From an uncultured Verrucomicrobiota bacterium (GTDB lineage Bacteria; Verrucomicrobiota; Kiritimatiellia; CAIQIC01; Lenti-01): 64,000 nt of DNA. The DNA lies in contig CALMNW010000085.1 of NCBI GenBank assembly GCA_937872095.1, positions 1 to 64,000 of the forward strand. The letters run 5' to 3'. Shown one piece after another: positions 20,839 through 60,200 of this stretch. The number at the start of each line of letters is the position of its first letter. The first letter of the stretch is position 1. A model generated the notes under the pieces. It was not told the DNA's origin. It saw only the letters and a list, made by a program, of their open reading frames with translations, and searched no databases. The position numbers and the translations under genes are program-made.

Positions 20839-20946
20839 TCGGGGTTTCGGCAGAGTGCCGTTGTCAGGTGGATCTATGGCGGCGTCCGAGCCATGCCGGC
20901 GCCGCGGGCGGAATGTATGCGACGAGTTCGAAGGAGTGGTGGAACG

Positions 20947-22980
20947 ATGAAATCGCGATGGGCGGGAATCTGGGCGGGGACGGCGGGGCTGGCCTGCGCC
21001 GCGGCGTTCGGGACGGACGCGGACTACGTGGAGGCGGCGGCGTTCACGCAAACCGTGTCCGTGACGTTTTCCGGCGCGACGGCGACGGTGTCCAACGGCG
21101 CCGGCGCGGGCGTAGCTGTGTTGCGGGACGGGGCGAACGTGGCGCTGACCTCGACGGTCGCGGGCGTGGAAGTCCGCGTGTCCGGCACGGCGTCGCCGGG
21201 TTCGCTGCAAATCGGCAGCAGCCAGCCGATCCAGCTGACGCTGGCCGGCGTGGATCTCGCGAGCGCGACCAATCCGGCCATCGGCGTTTGGACGAGCAAC
21301 CGCTGTTTCGTGGTGCTGGCGAAGGGCACGACGAACGTCCTGGCGGACGGCGCGGTCAACGCGGCCGGCGGAGCGTTCTACGGCAGCGGCCCGCTGACGT
21401 TCAGCGGGCCCGGACGGCTCGCCGTCCGCGGCCTGAAAAAACACGGCATCTACGGCGCCGAAGCGATCCGGATCCGGGACGGCGAAATCGAGGTGTCGCA
21501 GGCGGTCTCCGACGCCATCCACGCGAGCGGAACGTTCCGGCTGGACAACGGCACGCTGAAGTTGGCGGCCGACAGCGACGGCATCGACGCCGACGCGGTG
21601 CGGATCGACGGCGGCGCCCTCGCGATCGCGAGCGTTTTGAACGGCACGCGCGCCATCCATTGCGACGGCGCGATGACGGTCGGCGGCGGGCTCATGGACG
21701 TGGCGGTGCGGGGAGCGCAGGGCAAGGGCATTTCCGCCACGGACCTGACCGTCGACGGGGGCACGATGCTGTTCCGGTTGACGGGCGACGCGGTGGTGGC
21801 GACGGTCACCAACGTCAGCACCAACGGCGCGACGGTCGCGACGAACGTCTACGGAAATCCTTCCTATTGTTCGGCCATCAAGTGCGGCAGCAACCTGACG
21901 GTCAACGCGGGGACGATCGTCGTGACCCATTCCGGCTTGGCGGGCAAAGGGCTTTCCGCGGACGGCGACGTCACGATCAACGGCGGCACGCTCGACCTGT
22001 TCACCAGCGGCGGCAATTCCGCGGCCTTCACCAACGCCGACAAGACGTACGACGTGGCGGCGGCCGACTGCCTGAAGGCCGACGGCACGCTGCGCATCCT
22101 GGGCGGCACCGTCCGGGCGACCAGCACCGGGGCGGCGGGCGACGCCATCTCGACGGAAGGCGCGGCGATCATCGGCGTGGCGGGCATCACCAATACGCCC
22201 TACGTCGAGGTGGCTACGCGCGGCGTGCGGGTCTATTTGTCCGGATCGAACGACGGCGCGGCCTATTCCAACCCGAAGACTTTTTGCGCGCAGGGCAACG
22301 TGACGGTCAACGGCGGCACGTTCCGCGCCACGACGGTGAACGACGGCGGCGAGGGTTTGGAGAGCAAGAACGTCCTGACGATCAACGGCGGCGATCTGGA
22401 GATCGTCTGCTACGACGATTGCATCAACGCGGCCACCAACATCACCATCAACGGCGGGCGGATCTACTGCTACAGCACGGGCAACGACGCCATCGACTCC
22501 AACGGCACGCTGACGTTCAACGGCGGCCTGATCGTGGCGTCGGGCACGACCGCGCCGGAAGAGGGTTTCGACTGCGACCAGAACACGTTCGCGATCCGGG
22601 GCGGAACGCTGGTGGGGACGGGCGGCGCCAGCAGCACGCCGACCGCGGCGAACTGCACGCAGCGGTCGGTGCTCTACAAGGCGGTGGGCACGTCGGGCAC
22701 GGTGGTGCGGGTCGCGACGGGCGGCAACGATGTCCTGGTCTACAAGCTGCCGCGGACGTATTCGGGCGGCGGCGGGCCGGGCGGACCGGGCAGCACCACG
22801 ACCAGCATGACGATGCTGTTCAGCCTGCCTGGCCTCACCAACGCGACCTATTCCATCGTGACCAACGCCGTGGTTTCCGGTGGCACCGAATTCCACGGCT
22901 ACTACGTGGGGGCGACGGTGTCCGGCGGCCGGACGTCGAAGACCTTCACGGCTTCGTCCATGGTCACCACGGTCCAGTAA
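20947..22980 (+). CDS. Secreted beta-helix carbohydrate-binding-like protein (Cthe_2159/DUF4353-like)
   Basis: The 677-residue product has a signal peptide (MKSRWAGIWAGTAGLACAAAFG). A long right-handed beta-helix follows, built from repeats of the type TVNGGTFRATT, TINGGDLEIVCYDDCINA, TINGGRIYCYSTGNDAIDSN and TFNGGLIVASG. The NGG turns and DAI/DGI corners match the carbohydrate-binding-domain family typified by Cthe_2159, which binds calcium and acidic or cellulosic polysaccharide. A Gly/Pro-rich linker (SGGGGPGGPG) leads to a C-terminal beta domain. AAGGAG precedes the ATG at 20947. Box 3 upstream suggests two-component control. An LRR protein gene follows 11 bp downstream. Confidence 0.85.
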   Translation: MKSRWAGIWAGTAGLACAAAFGTDADYVEAAAFTQTVSVTFSGATATVSNGAGAGVAVLRDGANVALTSTVAGVEVRVSGTASPGSLQIGSSQPIQLTLAGVDLASATNPAIGVWTSNRCFVVLAKGTTNVLADGAVNAAGGAFYGSGPLTFSGPGRLAVRGLKKHGIYGAEAIRIRDGEIEVSQAVSDAIHASGTFRLDNGTLKLAADSDGIDADAVRIDGGALAIASVLNGTRAIHCDGAMTVGGGLMDVAVRGAQGKGISATDLTVDGGTMLFRLTGDAVVATVTNVSTNGATVATNVYGNPSYCSAIKCGSNLTVNAGTIVVTHSGLAGKGLSADGDVTINGGTLDLFTSGGNSAAFTNADKTYDVAAADCLKADGTLRILGGTVRATSTGAAGDAISTEGAAIIGVAGITNTPYVEVATRGVRVYLSGSNDGAAYSNPKTFCAQGNVTVNGGTFRATTVNDGGEGLESKNVLTINGGDLEIVCYDDCINAATNITINGGRIYCYSTGNDAIDSNGTLTFNGGLIVASGTTAPEEGFDCDQNTFAIRGGTLVGTGGASSTPTAANCTQRSVLYKAVGTSGTVVRVATGGNDVLVYKLPRTYSGGGGPGGPGSTTTSMTMLFSLPGLTNATYSIVTNAVVSGGTEFHGYYVGATVSGGRTSKTFTASSMVTTVQ

Positions 22981-22991
22981 GGGAGGACGCC

Positions 22992-24752
22992 ATGAAGCGC
23001 ATGAACGGATGGATGGGCTTGATCGGGGCGCTGGCGCTGGCAGGCACGGCGCTGGGGTCCGTCAACGTGGATTCGGCCGCGAACTATTCCGCCGGCTGGA
23101 CGAACGGCGCGAACGGCGGCGGCGGTTTCGGCGCGTGGAGCATCGTCGCGGATTCCGGCGCCGGCTGGGCGGGCTGCGGCATCTGGGACAGCTCCCTCGC
23201 GTCGCTCAACCTCGGGACCGCGTTCGGCTACGTGGCCAAGGGCGCGGGAGCCTATATCGATATGGACCGGCCGTTCGCGACGGCGCTGGCCGCCGGCGAC
23301 ACCTTCAAGCTCGATCTGGGCCTGAACTACGACTCCGGCACCGGCGGGAACAAGGGCTTCTCCCTGCGCACCGCCGACAACCGCGAAATCGTCGTGGTGA
23401 ACCAGGCCGATTCGGAGATCGTCACGGTGAACGGCGTCGCCGCCCTGACCAACTACGGCGTGAACACGATGTACTGGACCTTCACGCAGGTGTCGGCCAC
23501 GCAGGTGATGGTATACGCGACGGGCCGCGCCGGCGCCGAAACCTTTACGACCACGGTGGGCACCAACGTGGCCAGCTATCTCGCCAACGTCCATTTCTAC
23601 GCCGCGGCCATCGCCAACGACGCGGATGCGGAATATCGCCAGGTGTATTTCGACAACCTGACGCTGACGCAGGGCGCGTCCGACACCAACCTGTTCCGCT
23701 ATGCCGTCGAAAACGGCCGGGCGGTCGTCACGAGCGTGCTGGCCAGCGCCGCGGGCGATCTCGTCGTGCCGGCCACGTTGGGCGGCTACGTCGTCGGCGG
23801 CATCGGGCGCGGGGCGTTCCAAAACCTCACCAACGTCACGGGCATTGCGTTTGCCGGCGGGGCGAACGTGACGAACGTCGGCCCGCAGGCCTTCCAAGAC
23901 TGCACCGCCTTGGCCATCGCCGTGCTTCCAGATGGCTTGACGGCGCTGGCTCCGGGCCTGTTCTGCGGCTGCACGGAACTGGGCGCGGTGACCATCCCCG
24001 GCGGCGTGACGAACGTCGGGGACGCGGCGTTCGCCGAATGCCGCAACTTGGCGGCGATCGCCTTGCCGAGCGGCCTGACCGGGCTGGGCGAGTCGCCGTT
24101 CCTGAATTGCCGCAACTTGGCTGCGATCGCCGTGCCGGCGGGCGTCGCGGCCATCCCGGCCCAGTTCTGCTACGAATGCCGGAGCTTGGCGTCCGTCGAT
24201 CTGCCGGACGGCGCGACGCAAATCGGCCGGGCGGCGTTCTTCAATTGCTTTGGGCTGACGGCGCTGACGCTGGACGGCGCGCTGGACGCGGTCGGGGACC
24301 AGGCGTTTGCCGGCTGCGACGGGTTGGAGAAGCTGGCGTTCAGCGGCGGCGTGGCCGGTCTGGGGACGAACGTCTTCGGCAACTGCTCGTCGCTGGCGGG
24401 CGTCTATTTCCTCTGCGACGAACCGGCGGCGGGGGACGACCTGTTTCTCGGCGCCGATCTCGCCACGGTTTATTATCTGGTTTCGCCGTCGAGTTGGGGG
24501 GCTACCTTTAGCGGGGTACCGGCCGTGGAATGGGCGCCGGAAGCCGTCAGTCTCGCGGCGACAAACGGCGTATTCCGGATCGAGTTGGAGTGGGCGGACG
24601 GGCAATCCGTCAAAGTACAGGCCAGCGGCGATCTGGTGGCGACGGACTGGCGGGACGTGGGCTCCTGCGTCATCGCGAACGGAACCGCCAGCGTCGCAGA
24701 TACGAACTGGCCGGCGACGGCGGTGCGATACTATCGTTTTATCGCGCCTTGA
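22992..24752 (+). CDS. Secreted BspA-type leucine-rich-repeat protein
   Basis: The 586-residue product has a signal peptide (MKRMNGWMGLIGALALAGTALG) and an N-terminal jelly-roll-like domain (about 25-220). At about 245-500 it has a run of about eight BspA-type (LRR_5) repeats of the form LTAIxxPxGVTxIGxxAFxxC, e.g. AVTIPGGVTNVGDAAFAECR and ASVDLPDGATQIGRAAFFNC. It ends in a beta domain with VRYYRFIAP, a common ending of secreted proteins in PVC genomes. GGGAGGA lies before the ATG. Such LRR proteins usually act at the cell surface in adhesion or protein interaction. It is likely co-transcribed with the beta-helix gene. Confidence 0.88.
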   Translation: MKRMNGWMGLIGALALAGTALGSVNVDSAANYSAGWTNGANGGGGFGAWSIVADSGAGWAGCGIWDSSLASLNLGTAFGYVAKGAGAYIDMDRPFATALAAGDTFKLDLGLNYDSGTGGNKGFSLRTADNREIVVVNQADSEIVTVNGVAALTNYGVNTMYWTFTQVSATQVMVYATGRAGAETFTTTVGTNVASYLANVHFYAAAIANDADAEYRQVYFDNLTLTQGASDTNLFRYAVENGRAVVTSVLASAAGDLVVPATLGGYVVGGIGRGAFQNLTNVTGIAFAGGANVTNVGPQAFQDCTALAIAVLPDGLTALAPGLFCGCTELGAVTIPGGVTNVGDAAFAECRNLAAIALPSGLTGLGESPFLNCRNLAAIAVPAGVAAIPAQFCYECRSLASVDLPDGATQIGRAAFFNCFGLTALTLDGALDAVGDQAFAGCDGLEKLAFSGGVAGLGTNVFGNCSSLAGVYFLCDEPAAGDDLFLGADLATVYYLVSPSSWGATFSGVPAVEWAPEAVSLAATNGVFRIELEWADGQSVKVQASGDLVATDWRDVGSCVIANGTASVADTNWPATAVRYYRFIAP

Positions 24753-28897: not shown

Positions 28898-29545
28898 ATG
28901 CGCGAAGGCCTTTTCACGCAGCCGCTCTACTGGCTTTCGCGCGGGTTCGTCTATTTTTGCCTCCTGCTGAAGTACCGCATGCGGATCTCCGGCCGCGAAC
29001 ACGTGCCGGCGCAAGGCGGCGCCGTGATCGCCGCCAACCACTGCAGCTACCTCGATCCGCCGGTGATGGCCGGCTCCAACAACCGGCGCATCGTGCATTT
29101 CATGGCGCGCGACACGCTCTTTTCCAATCCCATCGCGCGCTGGTTCTTCCCGCGGGTGGGGGTGATCGCGCTCGACCGGACCAAGGGGGATCTCGGCGCG
29201 TTGAAGAAAGCCATCGCCACCCTTAAAGGAGGCCAGGTCATTGGCCTGTTCCCCGAAGGCACCCGCTCGCCGGACGGCCAGATGCGCGACGCCAAGGGCG
29301 GCATCGGCTTCCTGATCGCGAAGGGCGACGTGCCCGTCGTGCCGCTCTACATCTCCGGCACCCACGGGGCATTTCCGAAGGGTGCGGACAAACTCCGCCC
29401 CGGCCGCATCGTCGCGCGATTCGGTCCGGCCATCACGCCCGAGGAAATCCGCGCCGCCATGCCCGCCAAGAACGACTACGCCGCCGTCGGCGCCCTCGTC
29501 ATGCGACGCATCCGCGCACTCGCGGATGAAACCGCCCCGGCCTGA
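28898..29545 (+). CDS. plsC: 1-acyl-sn-glycerol-3-phosphate acyltransferase (PlsC family)
   Basis: PlsC acylates lysophosphatidic acid to phosphatidic acid at the inner membrane. The 215-residue product has an N-terminal hydrophobic helix (PLYWLSRGFVYFCLLL), catalytic motif I ANHCSYLDPP (NHxxxxD variant), motif II-like RWFFPRVGVIALDR, motif III GLFPEGTRSPDGQ and motif IV VPVVPLYISGT. The position behind aroA-cmk is common. It is the last gene of the operon; a TTTTACGTAGCGTGGAAAAA repeat lies 26 bp downstream. Confidence 0.93.
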   Translation: MREGLFTQPLYWLSRGFVYFCLLLKYRMRISGREHVPAQGGAVIAANHCSYLDPPVMAGSNNRRIVHFMARDTLFSNPIARWFFPRVGVIALDRTKGDLGALKKAIATLKGGQVIGLFPEGTRSPDGQMRDAKGGIGFLIAKGDVPVVPLYISGTHGAFPKGADKLRPGRIVARFGPAITPEEIRAAMPAKNDYAAVGALVMRRIRALADETAPA

Positions 29546-29570
29546 GCCTCCCGCAAATCGCAGTTTCTCG

Positions 29571-29593
29571 TTTTTACGTAGCGTGGAAAAACG
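29571..29593. repeat. Dispersed intergenic repeat TTTTACGTAGCGTGGAAAAA
   Basis: The 20-mer at 29572-29591 is shared with 63224-63243 and, in inverted form, with 41772-41790. It lies between plsC and the TonB receptor gene. The two other copies sit next to perfect TTTTCCAC palindromes. Confidence 0.65.
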
Positions 29594-29690
29594 GCTGGGT
29601 CGCCCGCCTTCGCCAATTCCTCGCGATTGAACTTTTTTGCGGCCGAAAGCGTTTCTTTCCATGGCAACCACTTTGCCTGGAGGAAGAAAC

Positions 29691-31865
29691 GTGCAGGAAA
29701 CGATTCGGACGATCATGTTGGGGGCGGCGCTGGGCGTCGCCGGCGCCGGAAGTTGTTGGAGCCAGACCGCGGTCGCCGCCGCCGCGGCGCTGCCGGAAAT
29801 CGTCGTGACGGCGACGCGGACCGAGGAAAACGCCGTCCGGCTGCCCCAGTCCACGTGCGTGGCGACGGCGGAGGAGATCCGGGAACGGCATCCGACGCAG
29901 CCCGTCGAAGCGCTGCGCAACGAGCCGGGCATTTGGATCCAGAAGACGGGCGCCGGGGGCGGCACGCCGGTGGTGCGCGGCATGATGGGCAACACGGTGC
30001 TGTATCTGGTGGACGGCATCCGCATCAACAACGGGCGGCTGTTCAGCGGGCCCAACGCGTTTTTCAACCAGATCGACGTCGGTTCGATCGACCGGATCGA
30101 GATCCTGAAGGGGCCCGGTTCGGTGCAGTACGGCAGCGACGCCATGGGCGGCGTCATCCAGATGCAGACGCCGACGCTGGATTTCTTCCCCGAATCGCCC
30201 GTTTGGGGAGGTCGGCTGGCGGGGCAATACAGCACGGCCGACGAAGGCGGGCTGGGGCACGGCGAGGCCTATTACGCGGACAGCCGCATGAACGCCAGCG
30301 CGGGCGCGACCTATTTCACGGCGGACGACGTCCGCGCCGGCGGCGGCGACAAGCTGGAGCACACGTCGCTGAACAGTTCCGGCGGTTTCGGCAAGGCCCG
30401 GATCAAGCTGGGCGAGGGGCACGTGCTGACGCTGGGCTGCCTGGAAAACGTCCGGACGGACGTGGAGCGCCACGACCAGTCCGCGCGCAATCCGAACAGC
30501 GGCGAGCCCCGGTTCTTCACGCCGCGGGAGGAACGGACGCTGGTGTACCTCAAGGACACGTTCGACCGCGAGGGCGGAGTCGTTTCGCATCTGGAACCGT
30601 ATCTGTACTACCAGAACTACCAAGCGAAGTCGTACTACAACACGGAGAAAGACGCGACGACCTTCCAGCGCGACGTCACGCAACAGGACCAGGACATGGT
30701 CGGGGCCGGATTGACCGCCGCAAGCCCGCTGGGCGACGGGCTCAAGCTGGTTTACGGGGCGGACTACCGCTATGAAAACTTCACGGAGGACAAGGATCGC
30801 TGCGTTTGGTCTCCCGGCGGCGGCGACGGGACGTGGTCGCTGCCGAAAGGCACGACGCCGGACGGGACCTACGACGTGGCCGACGCCTTCGCCATGCTCG
30901 ACTGGAATCCGATCGAACGCCTCCGCCTGACCGCGGGCGCCCGGTTCGAAAGCACCCATCTGAACTCCGATCCGGAGGCGCAAAACGCCACGGCCGGCTT
31001 CACGACGGACGATCTCGATCTGGACGAACGCTGGAACTCGACGACGTACAGCCTGGGCGGCATCTATTGGTTCACCACGAACCTGGCGCTGAGTTCCCAG
31101 GCTTCGACCGGCTATCGCGCGCCGACCTATTCCGACGTGCTGAGCTTCGGACCGTTCACCTACGGCGTGAGCGTTCCCAGTCCCGACGTGGGGCCCGAGA
31201 AATGCACGACCTGGGAAATCGGTCCGCGGTTCGAGTCCGAGGCGGTTTCGGCCTCGGTCACCTACTTCTACACGTGGCTCGACGACATGGTCGACAGCGC
31301 GCGCGTCGAGGGCTACACCGACGTCAACGGCAACGGCGTCGAGGACGCGGGCGAGGGGAACTACGCCAAGGGCAACTACGGAACGGGCTATATCCAGGGC
31401 GTGGAATCGGCGGTCGAGTGGCGGTTCCTCGAAGACTGGGCGCTGTTCGGCAACTTGGCTTGGGCGGAAGGCTGGAACGACGAGCAGCACGACCATCTGC
31501 GCTTCATCCCGCCGCTGAACGGCGTCGCCGGCGTGCGCTGGCACGCGACGGATCGGCTGGCGCTGTCCGCGTACGCCCGCATGGCGGCCGCGCAGGACAA
31601 GATCTCGGAGGACGACAAGAGCGATCCGGCCCGCGCGAGCGATCCGTCGCGGACCTATCCGGCGGACGACAATCCGCCGCTGCGCGCGGATTATTCCGTG
31701 CCGGGCTTCGTGACCTACCATGCCCGCGCCGATTTCGCGGTCCGCGAAGGGCTGAGCCTGTTCCTGGCCGGCGACAATCTCTCCGACAAGAACTATCGCG
31801 AGGCGTTCAGCCGCCTGGACGCTCCCGGCATCAACTTCACGCTGGGCGCGGAATGGAACTTCTAG
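29691..31865 (+). CDS. TonB-dependent outer-membrane receptor
   Basis: The 724-residue product starts at a GTG (29691) 7 nt after GGAGG. It has a signal peptide (about 1-24), a TonB-box-like segment PEIVVTATRTEEN, the plug domain (AEEIRERHPTQPVEALRNEP, VLYLVDGIRINNG, IDRIEILKGPGSVQYGSDAMGG) and a 22-strand-type barrel ending in INFTLGAEWNF. The C-terminal Phe suits outer-membrane insertion. The region STGYRAPTYSDVLSFGPFTY...SPDVGPEK resembles the FRAP/NPDL box of heme receptors but lacks the His usually found between. The ligand could be heme, a corrinoid or another metal complex. It is followed after 1 bp by the CobN-like gene. Confidence 0.92.
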   Translation: MQETIRTIMLGAALGVAGAGSCWSQTAVAAAAALPEIVVTATRTEENAVRLPQSTCVATAEEIRERHPTQPVEALRNEPGIWIQKTGAGGGTPVVRGMMGNTVLYLVDGIRINNGRLFSGPNAFFNQIDVGSIDRIEILKGPGSVQYGSDAMGGVIQMQTPTLDFFPESPVWGGRLAGQYSTADEGGLGHGEAYYADSRMNASAGATYFTADDVRAGGGDKLEHTSLNSSGGFGKARIKLGEGHVLTLGCLENVRTDVERHDQSARNPNSGEPRFFTPREERTLVYLKDTFDREGGVVSHLEPYLYYQNYQAKSYYNTEKDATTFQRDVTQQDQDMVGAGLTAASPLGDGLKLVYGADYRYENFTEDKDRCVWSPGGGDGTWSLPKGTTPDGTYDVADAFAMLDWNPIERLRLTAGARFESTHLNSDPEAQNATAGFTTDDLDLDERWNSTTYSLGGIYWFTTNLALSSQASTGYRAPTYSDVLSFGPFTYGVSVPSPDVGPEKCTTWEIGPRFESEAVSASVTYFYTWLDDMVDSARVEGYTDVNGNGVEDAGEGNYAKGNYGTGYIQGVESAVEWRFLEDWALFGNLAWAEGWNDEQHDHLRFIPPLNGVAGVRWHATDRLALSAYARMAAAQDKISEDDKSDPARASDPSRTYPADDNPPLRADYSVPGFVTYHARADFAVREGLSLFLAGDNLSDKNYREAFSRLDAPGINFTLGAEWNF

Positions 31866-31866
31866 G

Positions 31867-34800
31867 GTGAGACGCCGCTCCAGTTTCTGGGGCGCGTTGG
31901 CCGCCGTCGCCGCGCTGTCGTGCGGCGCGGCGGCGTCCGCCGATCCGGGGGCGGCCGGTCTCCGGTTCGGTTTCGTGGGCCTGCACGGGGGCGTGTTCGA
32001 CGCCCTGCAGGAATGCGCCCCGGCGCTGGATCTCCGGTTGATCTATTTCGCGGACGAGGACGTGCGCCGCGACGGATTCGGTTTCGACGGCGTGGGCGTC
32101 GTGTTTTTCCAGCACCTGCGCGCGGAGGACAAGGACCGCTACGTCGAGAAGCTGACGGCGGCCAAGGCGCGGAACCCCCGGTTCGCGGCGTTGACCTGTT
32201 CGCCGCTGCCGGGGGCGCTGCTGCCGGAACTGGTGCAGAACGGAATCGTCGTCGACGATCCGGAGGTCCACCGCTACTACGGTTCTACGAAGGAAAACCT
32301 GCGGCGCCTGCTGGCCTATGCGGCCATCCGCTACGGCGGACGCGCGGGCACCGTCGAGCCCCCGCTGGACGAAATGCCGCCGCCGGTGTTCCACCCGGAC
32401 CATCCCGAAGGTTTTCCGGACGTTTCGTCGTTTCTGGAATGGGCCGCCGCCTGCCGGGCGGAAGACCCGCAAAAAGGCCGCGTGCTGGTCGTCGCGCATC
32501 CGTTGCACCTGGCGTTCCAGCAGGCCCGCGTGGTGGCAGCGCTGGTCCGCGAATGCGAGCGGCGGGGAATGTTGGCGGCCTGCATCACCGACGGCACGCC
32601 GGGGTGGGAGGAGCGCGAGCGCGAATTCCGGCCGGACGTCGTCGTCCACACCTGCCACGGCAGCGAACCCCTCGCGCTGCGCGAGGAACTGGGCGCTCCG
32701 CACGTGTCCTCCCTGTACACGAAGGCCGGCGCCATGGAGGCGTATCTGCGGGATCCGGAAACCGGACTCGCGCCGGGCGAGCTTCAACACCAAGTCGTCT
32801 CGCAGGAATTGCTGGGCACCGTGGAACCGCTGTTCGTCGGCGCCACCCCGCGGGGCGGCGGCAGCGAAGAGGCGGTCGAGCCCGTGCCCGAGCGCGTGGA
32901 ACATCTCGCGGCGCGGGCGGAAGCCTGGATCCGGTTGCGGAAAACGCCGGCGGCGCAGAAGAAGATCGCGATCGTCTACTACGACCGCTCGATGGGCAAG
33001 AGCGAGCTGATGCGCGGCACGGCGTCGGGGATGTTCCTGAACGCGCCGCGCAGCCTGCTGCGCGTCCTGAAGCGCCTGGGCGATGAAGGCTACGCGCTGG
33101 ACCATCCGTCGGAGAGCGAGGACGATCTGCTGGCGCGGATGAAGGACCACGGGCGGCAGGTCGGCGTGTGGGCGCCCGACGTGCTGGACCGGCTGGCCCG
33201 CGGCGGCCAGGCCGTGCTGGTACCGGCCGAGACCTACCGCGAGTGGTTTGAAACGAAAGTGCCGGAAGCCCGGCGCGAGGAAGTGATCAAGCAATGGGGC
33301 CCGCCGCCCGGCAAGTTCATGGTCTGGGAGCGGGACGGGCAAGCCTTCATCGTGATTCCGCGCGTGGATCTCGGCAACGTGATCCTGCTGCCCCAACCGC
33401 TGCGCGGCGAGGCGCAGACGGTTTCCGCCCTGTCCGCCCAGACGCACGACAAGCTCACGCCGCCGCCGCACAACTACCTGGCGACCTACTTCTGGCTGCA
33501 GGAGGGGTTCCGGGCGGATGCCATGGTCCATTTCGGGACGCACGGGTCGGAATTCCTTCTGCCCGGCAAGCCCGACGGGCTGGTCGCCGGCGATTGGTGC
33601 GACATGATCGTCGGCGCCCTGCCGAACGTCGGCCTGTGGATCGTCAACAATGTCGGCGAATCGACGCCGCTGCGCCGGCGCAGCTACGCCACGATCGTGG
33701 ACCACCTCACGCCGCCGCTGGTGGAGGCGGAGCTTTCCGACGAGCTCAAGAACCTGCAGGCCGACGTCCAGAAGTGGGAGACGCTGGAGGACGGCGCCTT
33801 GCGGGACAAATTCCTGGAAGCCGTCGGCCGCCAGATGCGCGACCTGCATCTCGACCGCGATCTGCACCTGGATCTGTCCGGCGAGCGCCGGCCGACGGCC
33901 GACGAAATGGCGCAACTGTCCCGCTATCTCGAAGCCATCGCCAACGAACGGATGCCCGCCAGCCTCCACGTGCTGGGCGAGATTCCGCCCCGCGATCTGC
34001 TCACGCCCTATCTCGTGCGGTGCGCCGGGCGCACCTTTCTCGACGGCTATCGCGCGCTGCTGCCGGCGCCGGCCGGCGCGGAAGCGCCGACCGAATCCGC
34101 GGCGCGGAAGCGGGCCGAAGAGGCGCTGGACGCGGTTTTGCTCCGGAAGCTGACGCCGCTCGAGGCCCTGCAAGCCCAGGGGTGCGCCGCGGCCGAAGCC
34201 CTGCCGAAGGTCGTCCAGGACGGCTTCGACCTGATGGCGCAGCTGGACGCCGACTACCGGAAGACGGGGCAGGAAATCGACAATCTCGCGGGGGCGCTGG
34301 CGGGACGCTTCGTGCCGCCCGGGCCGGCCAACAGCCCCGACCGGAATCCCGGTTCGGTGCCCACCGGCCGCGACATGTTCGTGGTGAATCCGGAGGAAAT
34401 CCCCACGCCCCAGTCATGGGAGATCGGCACGCGCCTGATCGACGAGATCCTGCGGAAGCAATGGGAGCAGAAGGGACGCTATCCGGACAAGATCGCCTTC
34501 AGCCTCAATTCGTTTTCGTCCTATCGCGACTACGGCGTCATCGAATCCCAGATCTTCTATCTGCTGGGCGTGCGGCCGGTGTGGGACGCGAAGCGGCTGG
34601 TGGAAGACGTGGAGGTGATTCCGGCGAGCGAACTGGGCCGCCCGCGCATCGACGTGTTCCTGTCCGCGCGCAGCTACTACCGCGACCAGTTGCCGACCCG
34701 CATGCATCTGATCGACAAGGCGATCCGGATGGTCGCGGATCTCGACGAACCGGACAACCGCGTGCGCGAGGATTCCCGGCGGGTGGAGACCGAGCTGGTC

Positions 34801-35883
34801 CAGCGGGGCCTGGATCCCGCGCGGGCCCGCTTGCTTTCCCGCGCGCGGATGTTCGGCAGCTCGCCCGGCCAGAACGGATCGGCCTGGTACTACTATCTGG
34901 CGGAGAAAACCGGCGAGTGGAACGACCGCGCGGATCTGATGCGGACCTATCTGGAACAGAGCCAGTACGTCTACACGGAAGACGCCTGGGGCGAAAACGC
35001 GCCCGAGGCCTACGAGCGCAACATCCAGGGCGCCGAAATGGTCATCCGCAGCTGGGCGGACACCGTCTCCAGCCCGCTCGCCAACAAGTACACCTGGTAC
35101 ATCGACGGCAGCTTGGCGCAGGCCATCAAGCATCTGACGGGCCGGGAGCCCGAATTTTTCCTTGCCGACGTGCGCGACGCCGGCCAGGTGCGGATGGTGC
35201 GGGCGGAGGACGCGTTGGAAACCGATTTCCGCGTGCGGCTGTTCAACCGGAAATGGATCGAAGGCATGATGAAGGAAGGCTACGCGGGCGCGGACCAGGT
35301 GGCCGTCCACGTCTCGAACATGCTGGGCTGGGAAATCATGCGCGAGAACAGCGTGTCCGCCGAAAACTGGCAGGAAGTGGTGGATGTCTATGTCCGCGAC
35401 CGCAAGAACCTGCGCATCCGGGAATGGTTCGACCAAAACAATCCCCAGGCGTTCCAGGGCATGACGCAGGTATTGCTGGAAACGGTGCGCAAGGGCTACT
35501 GGAGCCCGGATGCCGCCACGGTTCGCGAAATCGCCGAAGCCCACGCCCGCTCGGTCGTGCGGTTCGGCAAGAACAGCGGCATCCGCGGCGGCGGCAACGT
35601 CGCGTTCCAGAAGTTCATCCAAAACGCGCTGGATGTGCCCGGCGACGAGCGGGCGCAGCGCCTGCTGGCGGAATATCGCGCCACGCGGACCGCGGCCGCG
35701 CCGGCCGCCGAACCGACGCCCGCCGTGCCGGCGCCGGAAACCCGGACGGTCACCGGCCAGAAGCTCGAACCGGTGCCCGCCGCGCCGCATTGGCAGCGCG
35801 CGGGGTTCTGGCTGGCCGCCGCCGGCACGTTTCTGGGCTTGCTGGCGTACGGCTTCGTCCGCCGGAAGGGAACGATCCAATGA
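31867..35883 (+). CDS. Periplasmic, membrane-anchored CobN/HmuS-like chelatase subunit
   Basis: The 1338-residue product is a CobN/BchH-family large chelatase subunit with an unusual location. It has a signal peptide (residues 1-26, LAAVAALSCGAAASA) and a C-terminal membrane helix (FWLAAAGTFLGLLAYGFV) with a basic tail. The chelatase core is clear: MVHFGTHGSEFLLPGKPDGL (about 555), LPNVGLWIVNNVGESTPLRR, TIVDHLTPPLVEAELSDEL, then IAFSLNSFSSYRDYG and RPRIDVFLSARSYYRDQLP. Cytoplasmic CobN works with CobS/CobT ATPases, which are absent here and could not act in the periplasm. The closest known arrangement is Bacteroidetes HmuS, linked to removal of iron from heme. It starts with GTG; its stop overlaps the next gene (ATGA). 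Confidence 0.9.
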   Translation: MRRRSSFWGALAAVAALSCGAAASADPGAAGLRFGFVGLHGGVFDALQECAPALDLRLIYFADEDVRRDGFGFDGVGVVFFQHLRAEDKDRYVEKLTAAKARNPRFAALTCSPLPGALLPELVQNGIVVDDPEVHRYYGSTKENLRRLLAYAAIRYGGRAGTVEPPLDEMPPPVFHPDHPEGFPDVSSFLEWAAACRAEDPQKGRVLVVAHPLHLAFQQARVVAALVRECERRGMLAACITDGTPGWEEREREFRPDVVVHTCHGSEPLALREELGAPHVSSLYTKAGAMEAYLRDPETGLAPGELQHQVVSQELLGTVEPLFVGATPRGGGSEEAVEPVPERVEHLAARAEAWIRLRKTPAAQKKIAIVYYDRSMGKSELMRGTASGMFLNAPRSLLRVLKRLGDEGYALDHPSESEDDLLARMKDHGRQVGVWAPDVLDRLARGGQAVLVPAETYREWFETKVPEARREEVIKQWGPPPGKFMVWERDGQAFIVIPRVDLGNVILLPQPLRGEAQTVSALSAQTHDKLTPPPHNYLATYFWLQEGFRADAMVHFGTHGSEFLLPGKPDGLVAGDWCDMIVGALPNVGLWIVNNVGESTPLRRRSYATIVDHLTPPLVEAELSDELKNLQADVQKWETLEDGALRDKFLEAVGRQMRDLHLDRDLHLDLSGERRPTADEMAQLSRYLEAIANERMPASLHVLGEIPPRDLLTPYLVRCAGRTFLDGYRALLPAPAGAEAPTESAARKRAEEALDAVLLRKLTPLEALQAQGCAAAEALPKVVQDGFDLMAQLDADYRKTGQEIDNLAGALAGRFVPPGPANSPDRNPGSVPTGRDMFVVNPEEIPTPQSWEIGTRLIDEILRKQWEQKGRYPDKIAFSLNSFSSYRDYGVIESQIFYLLGVRPVWDAKRLVEDVEVIPASELGRPRIDVFLSARSYYRDQLPTRMHLIDKAIRMVADLDEPDNRVREDSRRVETELVQRGLDPARARLLSRARMFGSSPGQNGSAWYYYLAEKTGEWNDRADLMRTYLEQSQYVYTEDAWGENAPEAYERNIQGAEMVIRSWADTVSSPLANKYTWYIDGSLAQAIKHLTGREPEFFLADVRDAGQVRMVRAEDALETDFRVRLFNRKWIEGMMKEGYAGADQVAVHVSNMLGWEIMRENSVSAENWQEVVDVYVRDRKNLRIREWFDQNNPQAFQGMTQVLLETVRKGYWSPDAATVREIAEAHARSVVRFGKNSGIRGGGNVAFQKFIQNALDVPGDERAQRLLAEYRATRTAAAPAAEPTPAVPAPETRTVTGQKLEPVPAAPHWQRAGFWLAAAGTFLGLLAYGFVRRKGTIQ

Positions 35884-36485
35884 ACGGATTGATCGGATTG
35901 TTGTTCGCCGTCTGCAACGTGCTGTTGATTCCGGTGATCCTCGTGCTGCTGGCGTTCCTGGGTTGGACCGTCGTTCTGTTCGGCGGATTTTTGCGCGAGA
36001 CGTGGGCGCGGCGCGGCGCGCGGAGAACGCTGGATCGCGCTTTGGCCGCCGCGAAGCGCGGCGCGGCGCCGGCGGAACTGTGGGCGACGCTGTGCGCGGC
36101 CCGGTCGGGACTGGCGCCCGCTTTTTGCGCGCATGCCATACCCGGTACGGCGGATTCCGCCATTCTCGCCCATGCCGTCGCGGAACTGGAGCACGGCATC
36201 ACCGACGCCATGGCGCGGCTGTCTTTGCTGACGCGCGTCGGGCCGATGCTCGGCCTGATGGGCACCCTGATCCCGCTGGGGCCCGCCTTGGCGGGACTGG
36301 CCGCCGGCGACATGCAGGGCATGGCGCAGAACCTGGTGGTCGCGTTCACGACCACCGTGATCGGGGTGCTGGTCGGCGCGCTGTCCTACGCCATCGGCCT
36401 GGTGCGCCGCGCGTGGTACACGCGCGATCTATGCGACCTGGAATTCGTCTGCCAGCGGCTGGCGGCGAAAACGGAGGCGCCATGA
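35880..36485 (+). CDS. MotA/TolQ/ExbB-family proton-channel protein
   Basis: The 201-residue inner-membrane protein has three membrane segments (about 5-35, 118-145 and 150-175). The family's pore-lining region is TRVGPMLGLMGTLIPLGPALAGLAAGDM followed by VVAFTTTVIGVLVGALSYAI. These proteins use the proton gradient to drive a periplasmic partner. Here the partner is probably the DUF2149 protein, whose start overlaps its stop (ATGA), in place of ExbD. Overlap with the CobN-like gene upstream implies that all are made together. It corresponds in position to HmuU of the Bacteroidetes hmu operon. Confidence 0.88.
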   Translation: MNGLIGLLFAVCNVLLIPVILVLLAFLGWTVVLFGGFLRETWARRGARRTLDRALAAAKRGAAPAELWATLCAARSGLAPAFCAHAIPGTADSAILAHAVAELEHGITDAMARLSLLTRVGPMLGLMGTLIPLGPALAGLAAGDMQGMAQNLVVAFTTTVIGVLVGALSYAIGLVRRAWYTRDLCDLEFVCQRLAAKTEAP

Positions 36486-36811
36486 ACCGCAAGCCGCGCC
36501 GGTGGGAAGTCGTCGGAGAGGACGATCCCGGGGCCGGTCTGCTGAACCTGCTGGATGTGTGGGTGGCCTTTTCCGTGGCTTTGCTGCTGGCGCTGTTCGG
36601 CTATCTCCACAGCGTGAGGGCGCTCGCTCCGGTGGAGGCGCGGCAACCGGACAAATTGCCCGTCGCGGCGCTGCAAAAGGCGTTGAAAATGCCGCATTTC
36701 CGGCCGGCGAACGACGCGAGCACCGGCGAAGGAACGCGGCTGGGCGTGGCCTACCAGTTGCGCTCCGGGGAAGTCGTCTACGTGCCGGAAGAGGTCGTCG
36801 CCGCGCGCTGA
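36482..36811 (+). CDS. DUF2149 membrane protein (HmuV-like)
   Basis: The 109-residue product has a short cytoplasmic N-terminus with DDPGAGLLNLLDVWVAFSVALLLAL, where one membrane helix carries an Asp at its start, as in ExbD/TolR/MotB-type partners. A small periplasmic part contains YQLRSGEVVYVPEE. This matches DUF2149, a family repeatedly found beside CobN-like and MotA/TolQ-like genes. It probably forms the stator partner of the preceding protein. It is the last gene of the cluster; the next gene is convergent, 14 bp away. Confidence 0.85.
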   Translation: MNRKPRRWEVVGEDDPGAGLLNLLDVWVAFSVALLLALFGYLHSVRALAPVEARQPDKLPVAALQKALKMPHFRPANDASTGEGTRLGVAYQLRSGEVVYVPEEVVAAR

Positions 36812-36825
36812 GCGCGCGGCGGGAA

Positions 36826-37482
36826 TCAGCGCGCGAAGGCGTCGAAGGCAGCGGCCCAATCGGCTTGGGTTTCGAAGGGGACGCACCGCGCGTTCAAGGC
36901 GTCGAGCAGATCGGGGGAGGGGTCTTCGAGGGCGATGAAGCCGCCGAGGGGCGCGCTGTCTTCTTCGGCGGCCCGCCAGAGCACGAGCGTGGCGGAAGAT
37001 TCGCCGGCCGTCCCGAGTTGGTAAGCGGTTTCGATGATCATCGGAGGCAGGACGAGACTTTCGGCGGCATGGGCGACGGGCACGAGATTCGTGTTGGAGG
37101 CCGGGCCGGCGTCTTCCTGCGTGCGGGTGGTGCGCCAGGCGCCGTCGGGATTGCGGTGGCGGCGGACGAACGTCCCGGTCTCGCCGGGCGCGAGTTGATC
37201 GGGGAGCATGTCGCCGCGCCAGTAGAGGAGCCCGTTGCGTTTCCGGATTTTGCCGTCGGGCGTGTCGAACGTCAGCAGCACCTGCGGCGGCAGGGGGCGG
37301 GGATCGGGGGCGAAAGCCAGGCCGACGGCCTGCGCGGCCGAGGCGACACGTTGTTCGGCGTCCGTGAACACCTCGGCTCCGGCGAGCGAAGCGGGATCGA
37401 GCGGAATGCGCGCGGGACGGGCGAAAGTCGTGGCGGCGCCGAGCAGGAACAGGAGGACGATGGGCGGCAGGCGGCGGACCAT
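36826..37482 (-). CDS. Hypothetical secreted protein
   Basis: The 218-residue product has a signal peptide (MVRRLPPIVLLFLLGAATTFA) and no recognised domain. The mature chain contains LLTFDTPDGKIRKRNGLLYW and GGFIALEDPSPDLLDALNA, with mixed beta and alpha content. It begins 1 bp after the folE stop, so the two are co-transcribed, but no functional link is evident. Confidence 0.65.
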   Translation of the reverse strand: MVRRLPPIVLLFLLGAATTFARPARIPLDPASLAGAEVFTDAEQRVASAAQAVGLAFAPDPRPLPPQVLLTFDTPDGKIRKRNGLLYWRGDMLPDQLAPGETGTFVRRHRNPDGAWRTTRTQEDAGPASNTNLVPVAHAAESLVLPPMIIETAYQLGTAGESSATLVLWRAAEEDSAPLGGFIALEDPSPDLLDALNARCVPFETQADWAAAFDAFAR

Positions 37483-37483
37483 G

Positions 37484-38038
37484 CTATTCGGAGGAGCGGT
37501 GCCGGGACAGGTGCAGGAACTCGTTGCGGGTGGCGACGGAGTCGTGGAAGCTGCCGAGCATCGCGCTCGTCACCATGCGGGAATTCTGCTTTTCGACGCC
37601 GCGCATCATCATGCACAGGTGCTGGGCTTCGATGATCACGCCGACGCCTTCGGGCTGGAGCGTGTCCATGAGCGTGCGGGCGATCTGGTTGGTGAGGCGC
37701 TCCTGCACCTGGAGGCGGCGAGCGAAGAGGTCCGCCAGGCGGGCGATCTTGCTGACGCCGATGATCTTGCCGCGGGGGATGTAGCCGACGTGGCAGACGC
37801 CGAAGAACGGCAGGAGGTGGTGCTCGCAGAGGGAATAGATTTCGATGTCGCGGACGATGACCATGTGGTTGGCCTCGACCTCGAAGACGGCGGATTTCAG
37901 GAGGGCGGTGGGATCCTGCTGGTAGCCGCGGGTCAGATAGCTCCAGGCGGAGGCGGCGCGCTTGGGGGTGGCGCGCAGACCCTCGCGGTCGGGGTCTTCG
38001 CCCATGGCGACGAGCATCTTGCGGAAAAATTCTTGCAT
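37484..38038 (-). CDS. folE: GTP cyclohydrolase I
   Basis: FolE converts GTP to dihydroneopterin triphosphate, the entry to folate (and, in many bacteria, queuosine) synthesis. The 184-residue product has ATPKRAASAWSYLTRGY, the zinc and active-site region IEIYSLCEHHLLPFFGVCHVGYIP with Cys and His ligands, KIARLADLFARRLQVQERLTNQIA, and VIIEAQHLCMMMRGVEKQNS with the second zinc Cys. The start is at ATG 38038; a GTG at 38056 is in frame. No clear Shine-Dalgarno is visible. The thioredoxin-fold gene lies upstream on the same strand and queA is present elsewhere in the window. Confidence 0.95.
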   Translation of the reverse strand: MQEFFRKMLVAMGEDPDREGLRATPKRAASAWSYLTRGYQQDPTALLKSAVFEVEANHMVIVRDIEIYSLCEHHLLPFFGVCHVGYIPRGKIIGVSKIARLADLFARRLQVQERLTNQIARTLMDTLQPEGVGVIIEAQHLCMMMRGVEKQNSRMVTSAMLGSFHDSVATRNEFLHLSRHRSSE

Positions 38039-38098
38039 GGGGTCGGATTTCACCACAAGCGGGCGGGCTCCGCAACCCCGGAAAACGCGCGGCCGGCG

Positions 38099-38593
38099 CT
38101 AGTCGAGCGGGAGTTTCGGGCCGGCCGGACGATCGGGCGGGCGCATGGCGTAGCGCGAATGGGCCTGCTGGATGGCCCGGATGAACGCTTCGGGGCCGCC
38201 GGGCTGGTAGCCGAGTTGGCCGATGAGTTCGCCGCCGGGGCTGAACAGCAGCACGGTGGGAAAGCCCTGCACCTGGAAATGCCGCATGAGGCGCTCGTTC
38301 TGGGCTTGCAGCGCCGGGTCCTGTTTCGCGCGGCGGGGAAAATCCGCGAGCACGCAGACGAGGTTCGCGTCGGCGTACGTCTTGAAAGCGTCGGTGGAAA
38401 AGACTTCCGCGTCGAGGCGCTTGCACCAGATGCACCAATCGGACCCGCTGAAATCCAGCAGGAGGAGCTTTTGGCCTTGGCGGGCGTCTGCGGCGGCGGC
38501 CGGCAGGTCGGTGCGCCATTCGAAGGATTGGCCGACGCGGGGGGCGCAGGAAATGAGCAGGGCGGCCAGCAGGCCGGGAACGATTCTCTTCAT
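38099..38593 (-). CDS. Thioredoxin-fold lipoprotein
   Basis: The 164-residue product begins MKRIVPGLLAALLISCAP, a lipoprotein signal with lipobox LISC. It continues into a thioredoxin-like domain with LLLLDFSGSDWCIWCKRLDA (active-site CxxC as WCIWC) and the cis-Pro loop FQVQGFPTVLLFSPGGEL. This resembles periplasmic thioredoxin_7/DsbD-gamma-like proteins acting in disulfide reduction or cytochrome maturation. AAGGAA precedes the ATG at 38593. It is divergent from the LpxL-like genes and 60 bp upstream of folE. Confidence 0.88.
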   Translation of the reverse strand: MKRIVPGLLAALLISCAPRVGQSFEWRTDLPAAAADARQGQKLLLLDFSGSDWCIWCKRLDAEVFSTDAFKTYADANLVCVLADFPRRAKQDPALQAQNERLMRHFQVQGFPTVLLFSPGGELIGQLGYQPGGPEAFIRAIQQAHSRYAMRPPDRPAGPKLPLD

Positions 38594-38684
38594 GTACGGA
38601 TTTCCTTCCATGGATGGACAAGGATAGCACGGGACGGGGCGTTCCGCAAACGGGACTTGGCGGGAGGCGGGACGCTGGGGTAGC

Positions 38685-39584
38685 ATGACCCGCATGTTTG
38701 CATGGATTCTCCATCGATTTGCCCGGGCGGTCGCGGCCTTGCCGTTGGGCGGAGCGACGGTTCTTGCGCGCGCGGTGGGCTGGGTTCTGGCGAATGTCGT
38801 GCGCCTGCGCCGGACCTACGTGCTGAAAACGCTGGGGCGCTGTCTGCCGGACAAGACCGACGCGGAACGGCGGGCGATTTATGCGGAAGTCTGCCGCCTG
38901 CAGGTCCTCGGCATGATGGAATTGCTGCGCTACGCGGGGGGGCGGGAAGCGGAACAGGAAGCCCGCCTCGAAGTGAGCGGGAGAGAGCATGTCGAAGCCG
39001 CGCGGGCGCGGGGCAAGGGCGTGCTGGTCCTGATCGCCCATTTCGGCAACTACGCGCTGCTGGCGCTGCAGGTGCCCAAGCTGTTCGGCTATCCGCTGTC
39101 CGTGATCGCCAAGCCGCTGCGCAACGAGACGCTCAACGCCCTGTGGTGGGAACTGCAGCGGAAAGCGGGCGTGAACGGCATTCCGGCGCGCAACGCGTAC
39201 CGGGCCAGCGTGCGCGCGCTGAAGGACAACGGCCTGGTCGGTTTCATGCTGGACCAGAACCGGCCGGCGGACCAAGGGGTGTTCGTGGATTTCTTCGGCC
39301 GACCCGCCTCGACGACGCCGGGACTGGCCGTGATGTCGGCGCATACGGGAGCCCCGGTGCTGCCCGTGTTCATCCGCCGCCTGCCGGACGGACGGAACAT
39401 GGTCGAGGCCCGGCCTCCGATCGAACCGCCGCCCGACCGCCAGCCGGAGACGATCCGGGCTTTCACGGAGGCCTGCACGAAGACCATCGAAGACGAAATC
39501 CGGCGCTATCCGGAACAATGGCTGTGGTGGCACAAGCGCTGGAAGAGCCGGCCGCCGGAAGAACCGGCCGCGGCGGCGCCGTAG
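38685..39584 (+). CDS. LpxL-family lauroyl/myristoyl acyltransferase, copy 1
   Basis: The 299-residue product belongs to the lipid A late-acyltransferase (HTRL) family that adds secondary acyl chains to lipid A at the inner membrane. It has an N-terminal hydrophobic region, the HxxxxD-type catalytic segment VLVLIAHFGNYALLA (His-x4 with Tyr in place of Asp/Glu), GFMLDQNRPADQGVFVDFFG and a C-terminal WLWWHKRWKSRP. The catalytic acid position is changed relative to copy 2 (HFGNWE), so activity could differ. A TAGCAT -10-like element overlaps the first ATG; the ATG at 38694 is an alternative start. It is followed after 12 bp by copy 2. Confidence 0.85.
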   Translation: MTRMFAWILHRFARAVAALPLGGATVLARAVGWVLANVVRLRRTYVLKTLGRCLPDKTDAERRAIYAEVCRLQVLGMMELLRYAGGREAEQEARLEVSGREHVEAARARGKGVLVLIAHFGNYALLALQVPKLFGYPLSVIAKPLRNETLNALWWELQRKAGVNGIPARNAYRASVRALKDNGLVGFMLDQNRPADQGVFVDFFGRPASTTPGLAVMSAHTGAPVLPVFIRRLPDGRNMVEARPPIEPPPDRQPETIRAFTEACTKTIEDEIRRYPEQWLWWHKRWKSRPPEEPAAAAP

Positions 39585-57107: not shown

Positions 57108-57207
57108 ACGCCCAAACCGGCGCGGGGGCTGGGCGTTACCCGGGATTTCTTCCATGGCGGTCTTCGCCGCGCTTGCGCAACCCGATGGTTTCGGGCACAT
57201 TTCCGGC

Positions 57208-60200
57208 ATGGGTTTGCGTTTTCAGGGCGGCGGGGCCGCAAAGGCCATCCGATGGGCGGCAGCGTGCGCAGCCCTGCTGGGTACGTCCGCGTTCGCGCAA
57301 ACGGAGGCGTTTGAAGGCGCCCTTTTTCCGCCGGCCGGCTGGACGAACGGGGGGACCGCGATCTGGTTCAACTACGCCGTCTCCGCGTACGGCGTCGGAA
57401 CGAACTCCGCCATGGCGGCCTTCTATTCCGTCTCCGCGGGAACCGGGATGCTGGAAACGGCCCTCTTCGAAGCGCCCGCGGCTGGCGCCACCCTCGGGTT
57501 CGATTATGCCTATGCGGCCTTTGGCGCCGACTACGTCGACCGTCTGGCGATCCAGGTCTCCACGAACGCGGGCGCGACTTATTCCCTTTTGCTGGATATG
57601 CCCGGCGGCACCAACGCCGCCCTCAACACGGCCGGCACGCAAAGCAGCTATTTCGTGCCGACCGCCGCGGAATGGAAAACCAAAAGCATTCCCCTGCCGA
57701 CCGGGGCCAATCGGATTCGGTTCGACGCGATCACGGACTATGGAAACAATCTGTTTCTCGACAACGTGCAGATCTACGACGGAACGTCCGCCGCCGATCT
57801 GGCGCTGTCGTTGGCCGATTCGCCCGATCCGGTCTTGGGGGGCAGCAACCTGACCTATGCGATTGCGGTGTCCAATGCGGGGCCGGCGACGGCCGAGGGC
57901 GTGGTTTTGACCAACGGGTGGCCGGCTGGGGCGATTCTGGTTTCCGCGGAGGCCAGCCGGGGAAGCTGGATCACGAACGGCGAAACCATCGTGGCTGATC
58001 TCGGGTCGCTCGCCGTCGGGGAGGCGGCGACCGCGACGCTGGTCGTGCAGCCCCTATCCGCAGGCATCGCCACGAACGTCGCCGAGGTGTCCGCGGCGAC
58101 CTGGGATCCCCAGACGGGGAACAACCGGGCGACCGAAACGACGGCGGTGGATCCCGCCGATCTGGCGCTGACGGTGGTCGATTCGCCCGATCCGGTCGCG
58201 GTGGGCAGCAACCTGACCTATGCGATTGCGGTGTCCAATGCGGGGCCGGCGACGGCCGAGGGCGTGGTTTTGACCAACCGGTGGCCCGCCGGCGCGCTTC
58301 TGGTGTCCGCGGAAGCCAGCCGGGGAAACTGGATCACGAACGGCGAAACGATCGTGGCCGACCTCGGTTCGCTCGCCGTCGGTGAGATGGCGACCGCGAC
58401 GCTGGTCGTGCAGCCGCAGTCCGAAGGGACCATCACGAACTGGGCGGAAGTATCCACGTCGAGTTTCGATCTCCAATCGGGAAACAACCGCCAAAGCGCG
58501 GCGACGCTGGTGAGCCATGCCGGCGGCAACGTGTACGTCCGGACGAACTTCTACGGCGTGAGCGAGGATCGCGGCACGCTCGCGCTGTACCTGTATCGCA
58601 CGAACGGCGTGATCGGAGAAATCTCCATCGATTACGAGACCGTGGACGGCACGGCGACGGCCGGAAGCGACTACACGGACCGCCGGGGAACGCTCGTCCT
58701 CAGCAACAACGTGACCTCGGCCTCGTTGTCCATTCCCATTCTGAACGACGCGGATCCCGAGGACGACGAATCCTTCACGGTCCGGCTGTACAATCCCCAG
58801 GGCGGGGCGGTGCTGTCCGCGCCCAGCAACGCGACGATCCTGATTCACGACGAGGATGGCCTGGCCGCGTTGCCGTTCGAGGAAGGATTTGAATCGGGCG
58901 CGCTTTCCAACTACTGGGGTTTCTACTCGACCGCGACGACCGGTCCCAAGATCGACACCAACGATCTTCCCCACGGCGGGATTCGGCATCTCAACATGAA
59001 TGGCGTTCCCACCTATTCGCTCAACGAACTGGTGTTGAACGCGGACCTGTCCGGGCGGGAGGGGGTCCATCTCCGGTTCTGGCACAAGCGGCTGCCGTAC
59101 GAAACGGACAGCGCCATGAGCGAAACTTTCCAAGGCCATTCCTATGCGGACGGCGTGGCGATCAGCGTGGACGGGACCAATTGGTGCAAAGTCCATGGGT
59201 TGACGCTGGCCGAAACCGGCACGAACGAATACCGCCAGTTCGACGTGGCGCTCGATCCGATCCTGGCGGCGTACGGCTTGGGGTACACCAGCCGCGTGCG
59301 CATCAAATTCCAGGCGTACGGCTACTATTATCCTCCATATTACGGCCGTTTCTTCGACGACGTCGAACTCTACACCAGCGCCGGCAATCTGCGGTTCGCC
59401 GCGGAGGAATGGATGGGAACCGAAGCCGGCGGAGCGGTGACCGTGACCGTCGAACGCGTCGTGGGCGATTCGGGCGAAGTCGGCGTGGATTACGAAACCT
59501 TCGACGGCTCGGCGCTGGCGGGAAGCGATTACGCCGCCGCGACGGGCACGCTGACGTTTTCCAACGGCGTGCGGCAGCAGGCTTTCGTCGTGTCGATCCT
59601 CGACGACGGCGACGACGAACCGCAGGAAGCCTTCGGCATCCGCCTGTTCAATCCGCAGGGCGGCGCAGAACTCGCCAGCCCGACGCAGGCCGTGGTCCGC
59701 ATCGACGACGACGACGGCCCCGGGGAAGTGGCCTTTGCCGCGGCGCAATACGCGGAGCAGGAAGACAACGGTTTTGCGGCCATCGCGGTGAACCGCCTGT
59801 ATGGCCGGGACGGAGAGGTGTCCGTCCGTTGGCGGACGCAGGCCGGCACGGCGACGCCAGGCGCGGATTACGTGGAATCCACCGGAACGGTCGTCTTCGC
59901 GGACGGCGAAGTCCAATCCTTGTTCGAGATTCCCCTGCTGGACGATGCGACCGTCGAAGGACCGGAGACGGTCCAGCTTTTCCTGGAAGAGCCGGGAGGC
60001 GGCGCGACGCTCGGAACGCCCACCAACGCATGCCTGACGATCCAGGACGACGAGGCTCCGCGCGCCGCGTTTCCCTTCTACGCGGGCTTCGAATCCGGCG
60101 TGTGGTCGAACTACTGGACGGTGCGCACGAACGGGCCCGGCCGAATCCAGCAGATCAACCGGACCAACGGGTTCGAGGTCAACCGCAGCCTGACGATGGA

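Follow-up and report, generated by a model that had tools for sequence, protein, structure and literature searches.

Four co-directional genes were found on the forward strand at 29691-36811 of the window (the whole 64,000-nucleotide stretch of DNA that was analysed, from an uncultured Verrucomicrobiota-type bacterium), with gaps of +1, -4 and -4 bp between them. The first gene (29691..31865, GTG start with GGAGG upstream) encodes a TonB-dependent outer-membrane receptor that resembles heme receptors and is an analogue of HmuR; it scored 90 bits against Pfam Plug and 121 bits against TonB_dep_Rec. The product of the second (31867..35883, also with a GTG start) is a class I chelatase homologue predicted to be secreted and membrane-anchored, and its match to CobN-Mg_chel (PF02514; 884 bits across 1079 residues), its fold and its tree position mark it as HmuS-like but in a separate clade with NKY and HTCH motifs. 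The third (35880..36485) encodes a proton channel of the MotA/TolQ/ExbB family (HmuU analogue; MotA_ExbB, PF01618, 31 bits against a cut-off of 22.9), an assignment that also draws on a family alignment and a profile match to MotA in the PDB, and the fourth (36482..36811) a DUF2149 protein (HmuV analogue; PF09919, 49.5 bits against a cut-off of 27.1) with one predicted TM helix at residues 16-48. An earlier note on this DNA had described the same four genes, positions and gaps and had recognised the component types of an hmu-like system, namely a TonB receptor and CobN-type, ExbB-like and DUF2149 proteins. These were borne out by the open reading frames and the Pfam search, in which the TonB plug and barrel, CobN, MotA/ExbB and DUF2149 profiles all scored above cut-off. 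As the note had also said, HmuY- and HmuT-like genes are missing: no hmuY- or hmuT-type gene was found at 28898-38695 around the operon, and this absence is normal for the clade of the chelatase.

The genes on either side have housekeeping functions, with DAHP synthase, tyrA, aroA, cmk and plsC upstream and folE and a thioredoxin-like gene downstream. Elsewhere, the window encodes a 1294-residue protein with leucine-rich repeats of the BspA type (20868-24752) and a 1991-residue protein with Calx-beta, DUF11 and endonuclease/phosphatase domains (57154-63129).

The host assembly (3.33 Mb, 93% complete) was examined for related functions, and the chelatase was found to be its only PF02514 protein. 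ALAD, ferrochelatase (HemH) and CbiC were not found in this 93% complete genome, nor was a CobS/T/ChlD-type partner, for which TIGR02442 gave at best 46 bits (cut-off 779). With genome incompleteness allowed for, the host therefore seems unable to make tetrapyrroles by known routes. The cobS/cobT genes and complete B12 pathway that the earlier note had named as evidence against its reading were not seen. The genome does encode TonB and FeoB.

The upstream block from tyrA to plsC is shared with five relatives of the same genus at 74-95% identity. None of the four operon genes follows plsC in the sequence available from these relatives, the contig ending soon past plsC in two of them, and no match to the chelatase was found in three same-genus genomes of 93-94% completeness. 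The presence of the shared upstream block in relatives without the operon speaks against the contig being contaminated, and favours gain in the host lineage or loss in other lineages. A precise empty site could not be defined within the genus, as the relatives have the genes as far as plsC but no operon, and continue with downstream genes other than those of the window, leaving no clean junction.

The chelatase begins with a predicted Sec-type signal peptide (residues 1-25; 31867..31941) and ends with a predicted transmembrane anchor (residues 1313-1331; 35803..35859) followed by RRK, both read from the sequence, and its body is thus predicted to be periplasmic. Its best solved relative by sequence is HmuS (PDB 9d26; 465 bits), followed by CobN (359 bits) and ChlH (335 bits). 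An AlphaFold2 model of residues 28-1226, built from an input alignment that left out plasmid-derived rows, had a pLDDT of 84 and a pTM of 0.82. A fold search with this model returned HmuS 9d26 first (TM 0.80) and CobN second, and the six-domain fold of class I chelatases was present in the model.

In a quick tree of 40 proteins, in which the archaeal and BchH rows were long-branched, the chelatase grouped with three Lentisphaerota proteins (support 100), and this group then joined Planctomycetota to form a clade of 19 rows (support 100). The chelatase of G163, a genome of the same order, branched outside the 19-row clade (support 100). The clade and G163 together were sister to HmuS of Prevotella and its Verrucomicrobiota relatives (support 98), with true CobN and ChlH/BchH apart from this branch (support 98). 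The clustering with cytoplasmic CobN that would have spoken against the earlier note's reading was therefore not observed, and the chelatase also scored far under all CobN/BchH equivalog cut-offs. As three features that define HmuS are not found in it, the chelatase is counted, by sequence, as a member of a sister clade that is separate from HmuS and has an altered active site, though its mode of action may well be similar.

Heme de-chelation by HmuS of gut Bacteroides has been proven (EMBO J 2025; PMC12583661), so that iron removal from heme, to which the earlier note gave HmuS as linked, is now a published activity. HmuS converts heme to protoporphyrin in an NADH-dependent reaction that is lost in H538A, His538 of the HFGTHG motif being essential, and His1209 of LSLDHxxEFMGG lies opposite across the cavity (PMC12583661). 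The first motif is kept in the window chelatase as H555FGTHG560 (residues 555-560; 33529..33546), including His559 at the catalytic position of His538. The second motif is PLANKYTWYIDGS, which does not match the HmuS motif with its His1209 and Glu1212; within NKYTWY (residues 1073-1078; 35083..35100), Lys1074-Tyr1075 stand in place of HmuS Asp1208-His1209. Lys-Tyr was found at this position in 19 of 19 clade members and, among the rows compared, Tyr in the His1209 column is confined to this clade. The residue there is His in HmuS, BchH, G163 and the Azospirillum relative, and Asp in the methanogen, Pseudoalteromonas and true CobN.

Further HmuS residues have been replaced. These include Gln1198, Ser1199 and Trp1202, and all of the predicted propionate-binding residues have changed, as have His1209 and Glu1212. 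The heme site formed in HmuS by Met79 and His254-Gly-Arg is not matched, as HTCH (residues 261-264; 32647..32658), which occupies the His254-Gly-Arg place in the clade alignment, keeps a His while Gly-Arg is unconserved across the clade. The head motif that the clade conserves is GLHGG, without Met-Gly, though alignment of the head region with HmuS is weak, and the Met-rich insertion of domain IV is absent (the 230 residues ahead of PTGR hold 4 Met, as against 31 in Prevotella HmuS). Seven head and neck residues (His40, His211, His214, His261, Cys263, His264 and His279) are conserved, each of them in no fewer than 18 of the 19 sequences. With the axial His, Glu1212, the propionate-site residues, Met79 and the Met-rich insertion of HmuS all changed or gone, the substrate or the chemistry may differ. 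Tyr ligands occur in other heme proteins, and on chemical grounds Tyr1075 could act as a tyrosinate axial ligand aided by the neighbouring Lys1074. The clade, with Tyr for His, offers a set of natural variants with which the reaction mechanism can be studied.

The best families for the receptor were heme and hemoglobin receptors, all below cut-off, with TIGR01785 (TonB-hemin) the best NCBIfam at 229.5 bits (cut-off 316.85) and the B12 family at 97 bits; its best solved match was PhuR. Heme receptors are hence its nearest relatives, rather than the unrelated siderophore or sugar receptors that the earlier note had considered as the contrary outcome. The FRAP and NPDL boxes are present as YRAP and SPDV and, as previously noted for the window, no His lies between them in either the window receptor or that of G163, though His190, His244, His300, His423 and His677 are common to both. 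These two receptors, which occupy the same place in their loci, are 62% identical, whereas identity to the order's other receptors is ~31%, and the G163 receptor gene comes after a tonB gene. As His stands at position 1209 in the chelatase of G163, one receptor type appears to serve both active-site types, which favours a common ligand, heme.

The genetic context of related chelatases was compared, and the set of chelatase, ExbB-like and DUF2149 genes was found in every clade relative with enough flanking sequence and in most relatives outside the clade, indicating that the gene set in the window is more than chance. Genes of the ExbB-like and DUF2149 types adjoin the chelatase gene in the Prevotella hmu operon, several other Verrucomicrobiota, Azospirillum, Pseudoalteromonas and Methanobrevibacter. 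The pair was not found beside S. meliloti CobN, Spirosoma CobN, BchH or ChlH, and was not nearby in some Verrucomicrobiota relatives (L072, L073 and L075, and the truncated L068 and L069); G009, one of the Verrucomicrobiota genomes without a nearby pair, has a DUF2149 gene elsewhere. Methanogens have no outer membrane. The persistence of the set in a methanogen, and the fact that its three genes stay together while the uptake partner varies, suggest that the proton motor works for the chelatase, not for the receptor, the pair going with the chelatase even in an archaeon that lacks an outer membrane, where outer-membrane transport can hardly be its purpose.

The Methanobrevibacter operon (L061:8462-15796) encodes a secreted CobN-like protein, a DUF2162 predicted transporter, an ExbB-like protein and a DUF2149 protein, and the genome carries six DUF2149 genes. 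An equivalence between HmuT and the archaeal DUF2162 protein at the same operon position was rejected, as the two share no similarity. A chimeric operon, combining a chelatase of the planctomycete clade with a receptor and motor of the G163 type, was also considered but not adopted, as the AU test on the ExbB + DUF2149 tree accepts both groupings.

The invariant positions of the DUF2149 protein are P16, N22, L23 and D25. The earlier note had called this protein stator-like; the feature that it has in common with an ExbD-like stator is one Asp in a TM motif. A comparison by hhalign with one ExbD of the host genome gave a probability of 1.5% over 21 columns spanning the TM Asp, and a profile search of the PDB gave no match. 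Profile comparison and structure prediction showed no homology, and a reading of DUF2149 as an ExbD homologue is not supported.

Among the window and the planctomycete, Lentisphaerota and other Verrucomicrobiota stretches, a TonB receptor gene is present at the chelatase locus only in the window and G163. In nearly all of the receptor-less loci, a pseudopilin gene lies directly upstream on the same strand, its product carrying an N-methyl motif and scoring, where it does score, as DUF1559. A pseudopilin gene (DUF1559 in Planctomycetota) takes the place of the window receptor in L040-L048, L050-L054, L056, L060, L065-L067 and L071-L073, and only a handful of other pseudopilin genes were seen in those same stretches. 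Many Planctomycetota loci add a lipoprotein of ~90 residues with CxxC...CxxxC, which is perhaps a receiver of the released metal. This small gene lies upstream of the pseudopilin gene (L041:8444-8734 and L054:8525-8797, also L042-L045, L047, L051 and L056), and its product has no Pfam family. Neither the window nor the planctomycete loci encode a permease-like HmuT. An HmuT homologue with 30% identity to Prevotella HmuT is encoded at L066:12736-13488, in an HmuS-type Verrucomicrobiota locus without a TonB receptor. The chelatase relative on plasmid p4 of Azospirillum brasilense, with its ExbB and DUF2149 genes (L102:532-8573), is neighboured by genes for a FecBC-type ABC transporter, a ferredoxin-domain protein and a TonB receptor and by nikR, a setting that hints at nickel or another metal. 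Planctomycetota of the chelatase clade carry ALAD and ferrochelatase.

On balance, it is probable that the operon directs an hmu-type acquisition of tetrapyrrole iron, with periplasmic removal of the metal driven by an ExbB-DUF2149 motor and with heme as the most likely ligand. In the scheme proposed, in which the ligand, direction of reaction, motor role and energetics are inferred, the receptor, powered by the TonB of the cell, would pass its ligand, most likely heme or else a related metallo-tetrapyrrole, to the periplasm. The anchored chelatase would hold the tetrapyrrole between its halves, where His559 would approach it from one side and Tyr1075, with Lys1074 behind it, from the opposite side, and take the metal out in what would be the chelatase reaction in reverse; the released Fe(II) could then enter via FeoB. 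Cytoplasmic chelatases have an ATP-driven AAA+ partner, CobST or ChlID. The ExbB-like channel and DUF2149 protein would, in place of such a partner, form a proton-driven motor acting on the chelatase, raising the concrete question of whether metal removal can use a proton-driven force instead of ATP. More tentatively, the clade may be a second class of periplasmic tetrapyrrole de-chelatases, recognisable by a His/Tyr(Lys) active site and a site rich in His and Cys in the head and neck. A dedicated ExbB-DUF2149 proton motor would in that case act straight on the chelatase, and the surface part that supplies the substrate would be exchangeable, being a TonB receptor in the host and a pseudopilin of type II in Planctomycetota and Lentisphaerota. 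Such a clade would carry HmuS-type chemistry into Planctomycetota, some of which have heme synthesis genes of their own.

The same machinery could serve another ligand, with the Lys-Tyr clade acting on a corrinoid or a Ni or Mg/Zn tetrapyrrole and freeing Co, Ni or another metal. The cavity motif and the head and neck residues differ from HmuS as a block that is strictly kept across 19 sequences, the Planctomycetota of the clade combine heme synthesis genes with the lack of a TonB receptor gene at the locus, and the Azospirillum relative adjoins nikR and the ABC transporter genes. However, this is rather unlikely, given that the receptor scores heme far above B12 families, that the 62% identical G163 receptor is paired with a chelatase with His at 1209, such that both active-site types seem to share a ligand, and that no B12 riboswitch was found in the 64-kb window.

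It is also improbable that the protein is a carrier which picks up heme at the receptor and delivers it to the inner membrane for a crossing powered by ExbB/DUF2149. A chaperone role has been proposed for P. gingivalis HmuS, heme is still dechelated, and protoporphyrin still made, by the B. fragilis btuS1 btuS2 double mutant (PMC6460266), and the locus has no heme ABC transporter. The effect of H538A on the HmuS reaction (PMC12583661), with the equivalent His kept in the window chelatase, argues against this, as does the lack of a permease-like HmuT in the window and the planctomycete loci. The name of the PF02514 family, and the automatic annotation of such proteins as CobN, would make the protein a biosynthetic cobaltochelatase or Mg-chelatase H subunit, a role that is very improbable. 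It is refuted by the equivalog scores, the pathway gaps (no CbiC, ALAD or CobS/T/ChlD found in the ~93% complete genome), the signal peptide and anchor, and the well-supported position in the tree away from CobN/ChlH, unless the genes concerned sit in the missing ~7% of the genome.

Hmu-type heme de-chelation thus remains the preferred reading, and the interpretation in the earlier note is upheld in part. Points that weigh against this reading are the replaced HmuS residues, the receptor score under the TonB-hemin cut-off together with the lack of a His between the two boxes, the ALAD and ferrochelatase genes of the Planctomycetota in the clade, the protoporphyrin made by the B. fragilis double mutant and the nikR neighbour in Azospirillum. 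The Bacteroidota hmu genes are up 11- to 290-fold under iron limitation (PMC10434189), and the Bacteroidota papers leave open the roles of HmuT, HmuU and HmuV and the power source of HmuS. The superfamily map in the HmuS paper includes many clusters without an assigned function (PMC12583661), and no papers on such loci in Planctomycetota or Verrucomicrobiota were found in the open-licence literature.

CobN and ChlH/BchH share the six-domain class I chelatase fold with the window protein, but they are cytoplasmic, need AAA+ partners, belong to biosynthetic operons, have other residues in the second motif and lack ExbB/DUF2149 neighbours. The broad label of exported CobN-like proteins, which are not tied to B12 synthesis and for which metalloporphyrin salvage has been proposed, covers HmuS and others, whereas the window clade is not described in the literature found. 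The closest likeness in gene content is to hmuYRSTUV of B. thetaiotaomicron, P. gingivalis and Prevotella, which has the receptor, anchored CobN-type, ExbB-like and DUF2149 genes in the same order, though HmuY and HmuT are absent from the window. The chelatase shares HFGTHG with HmuS, and has 9d26 as its best fold match, but differs in lacking the Met-rich insertion and Met79, in having Lys-Tyr for Asp1208-His1209 and HTCH for HGR, and in belonging to a clade of its own.
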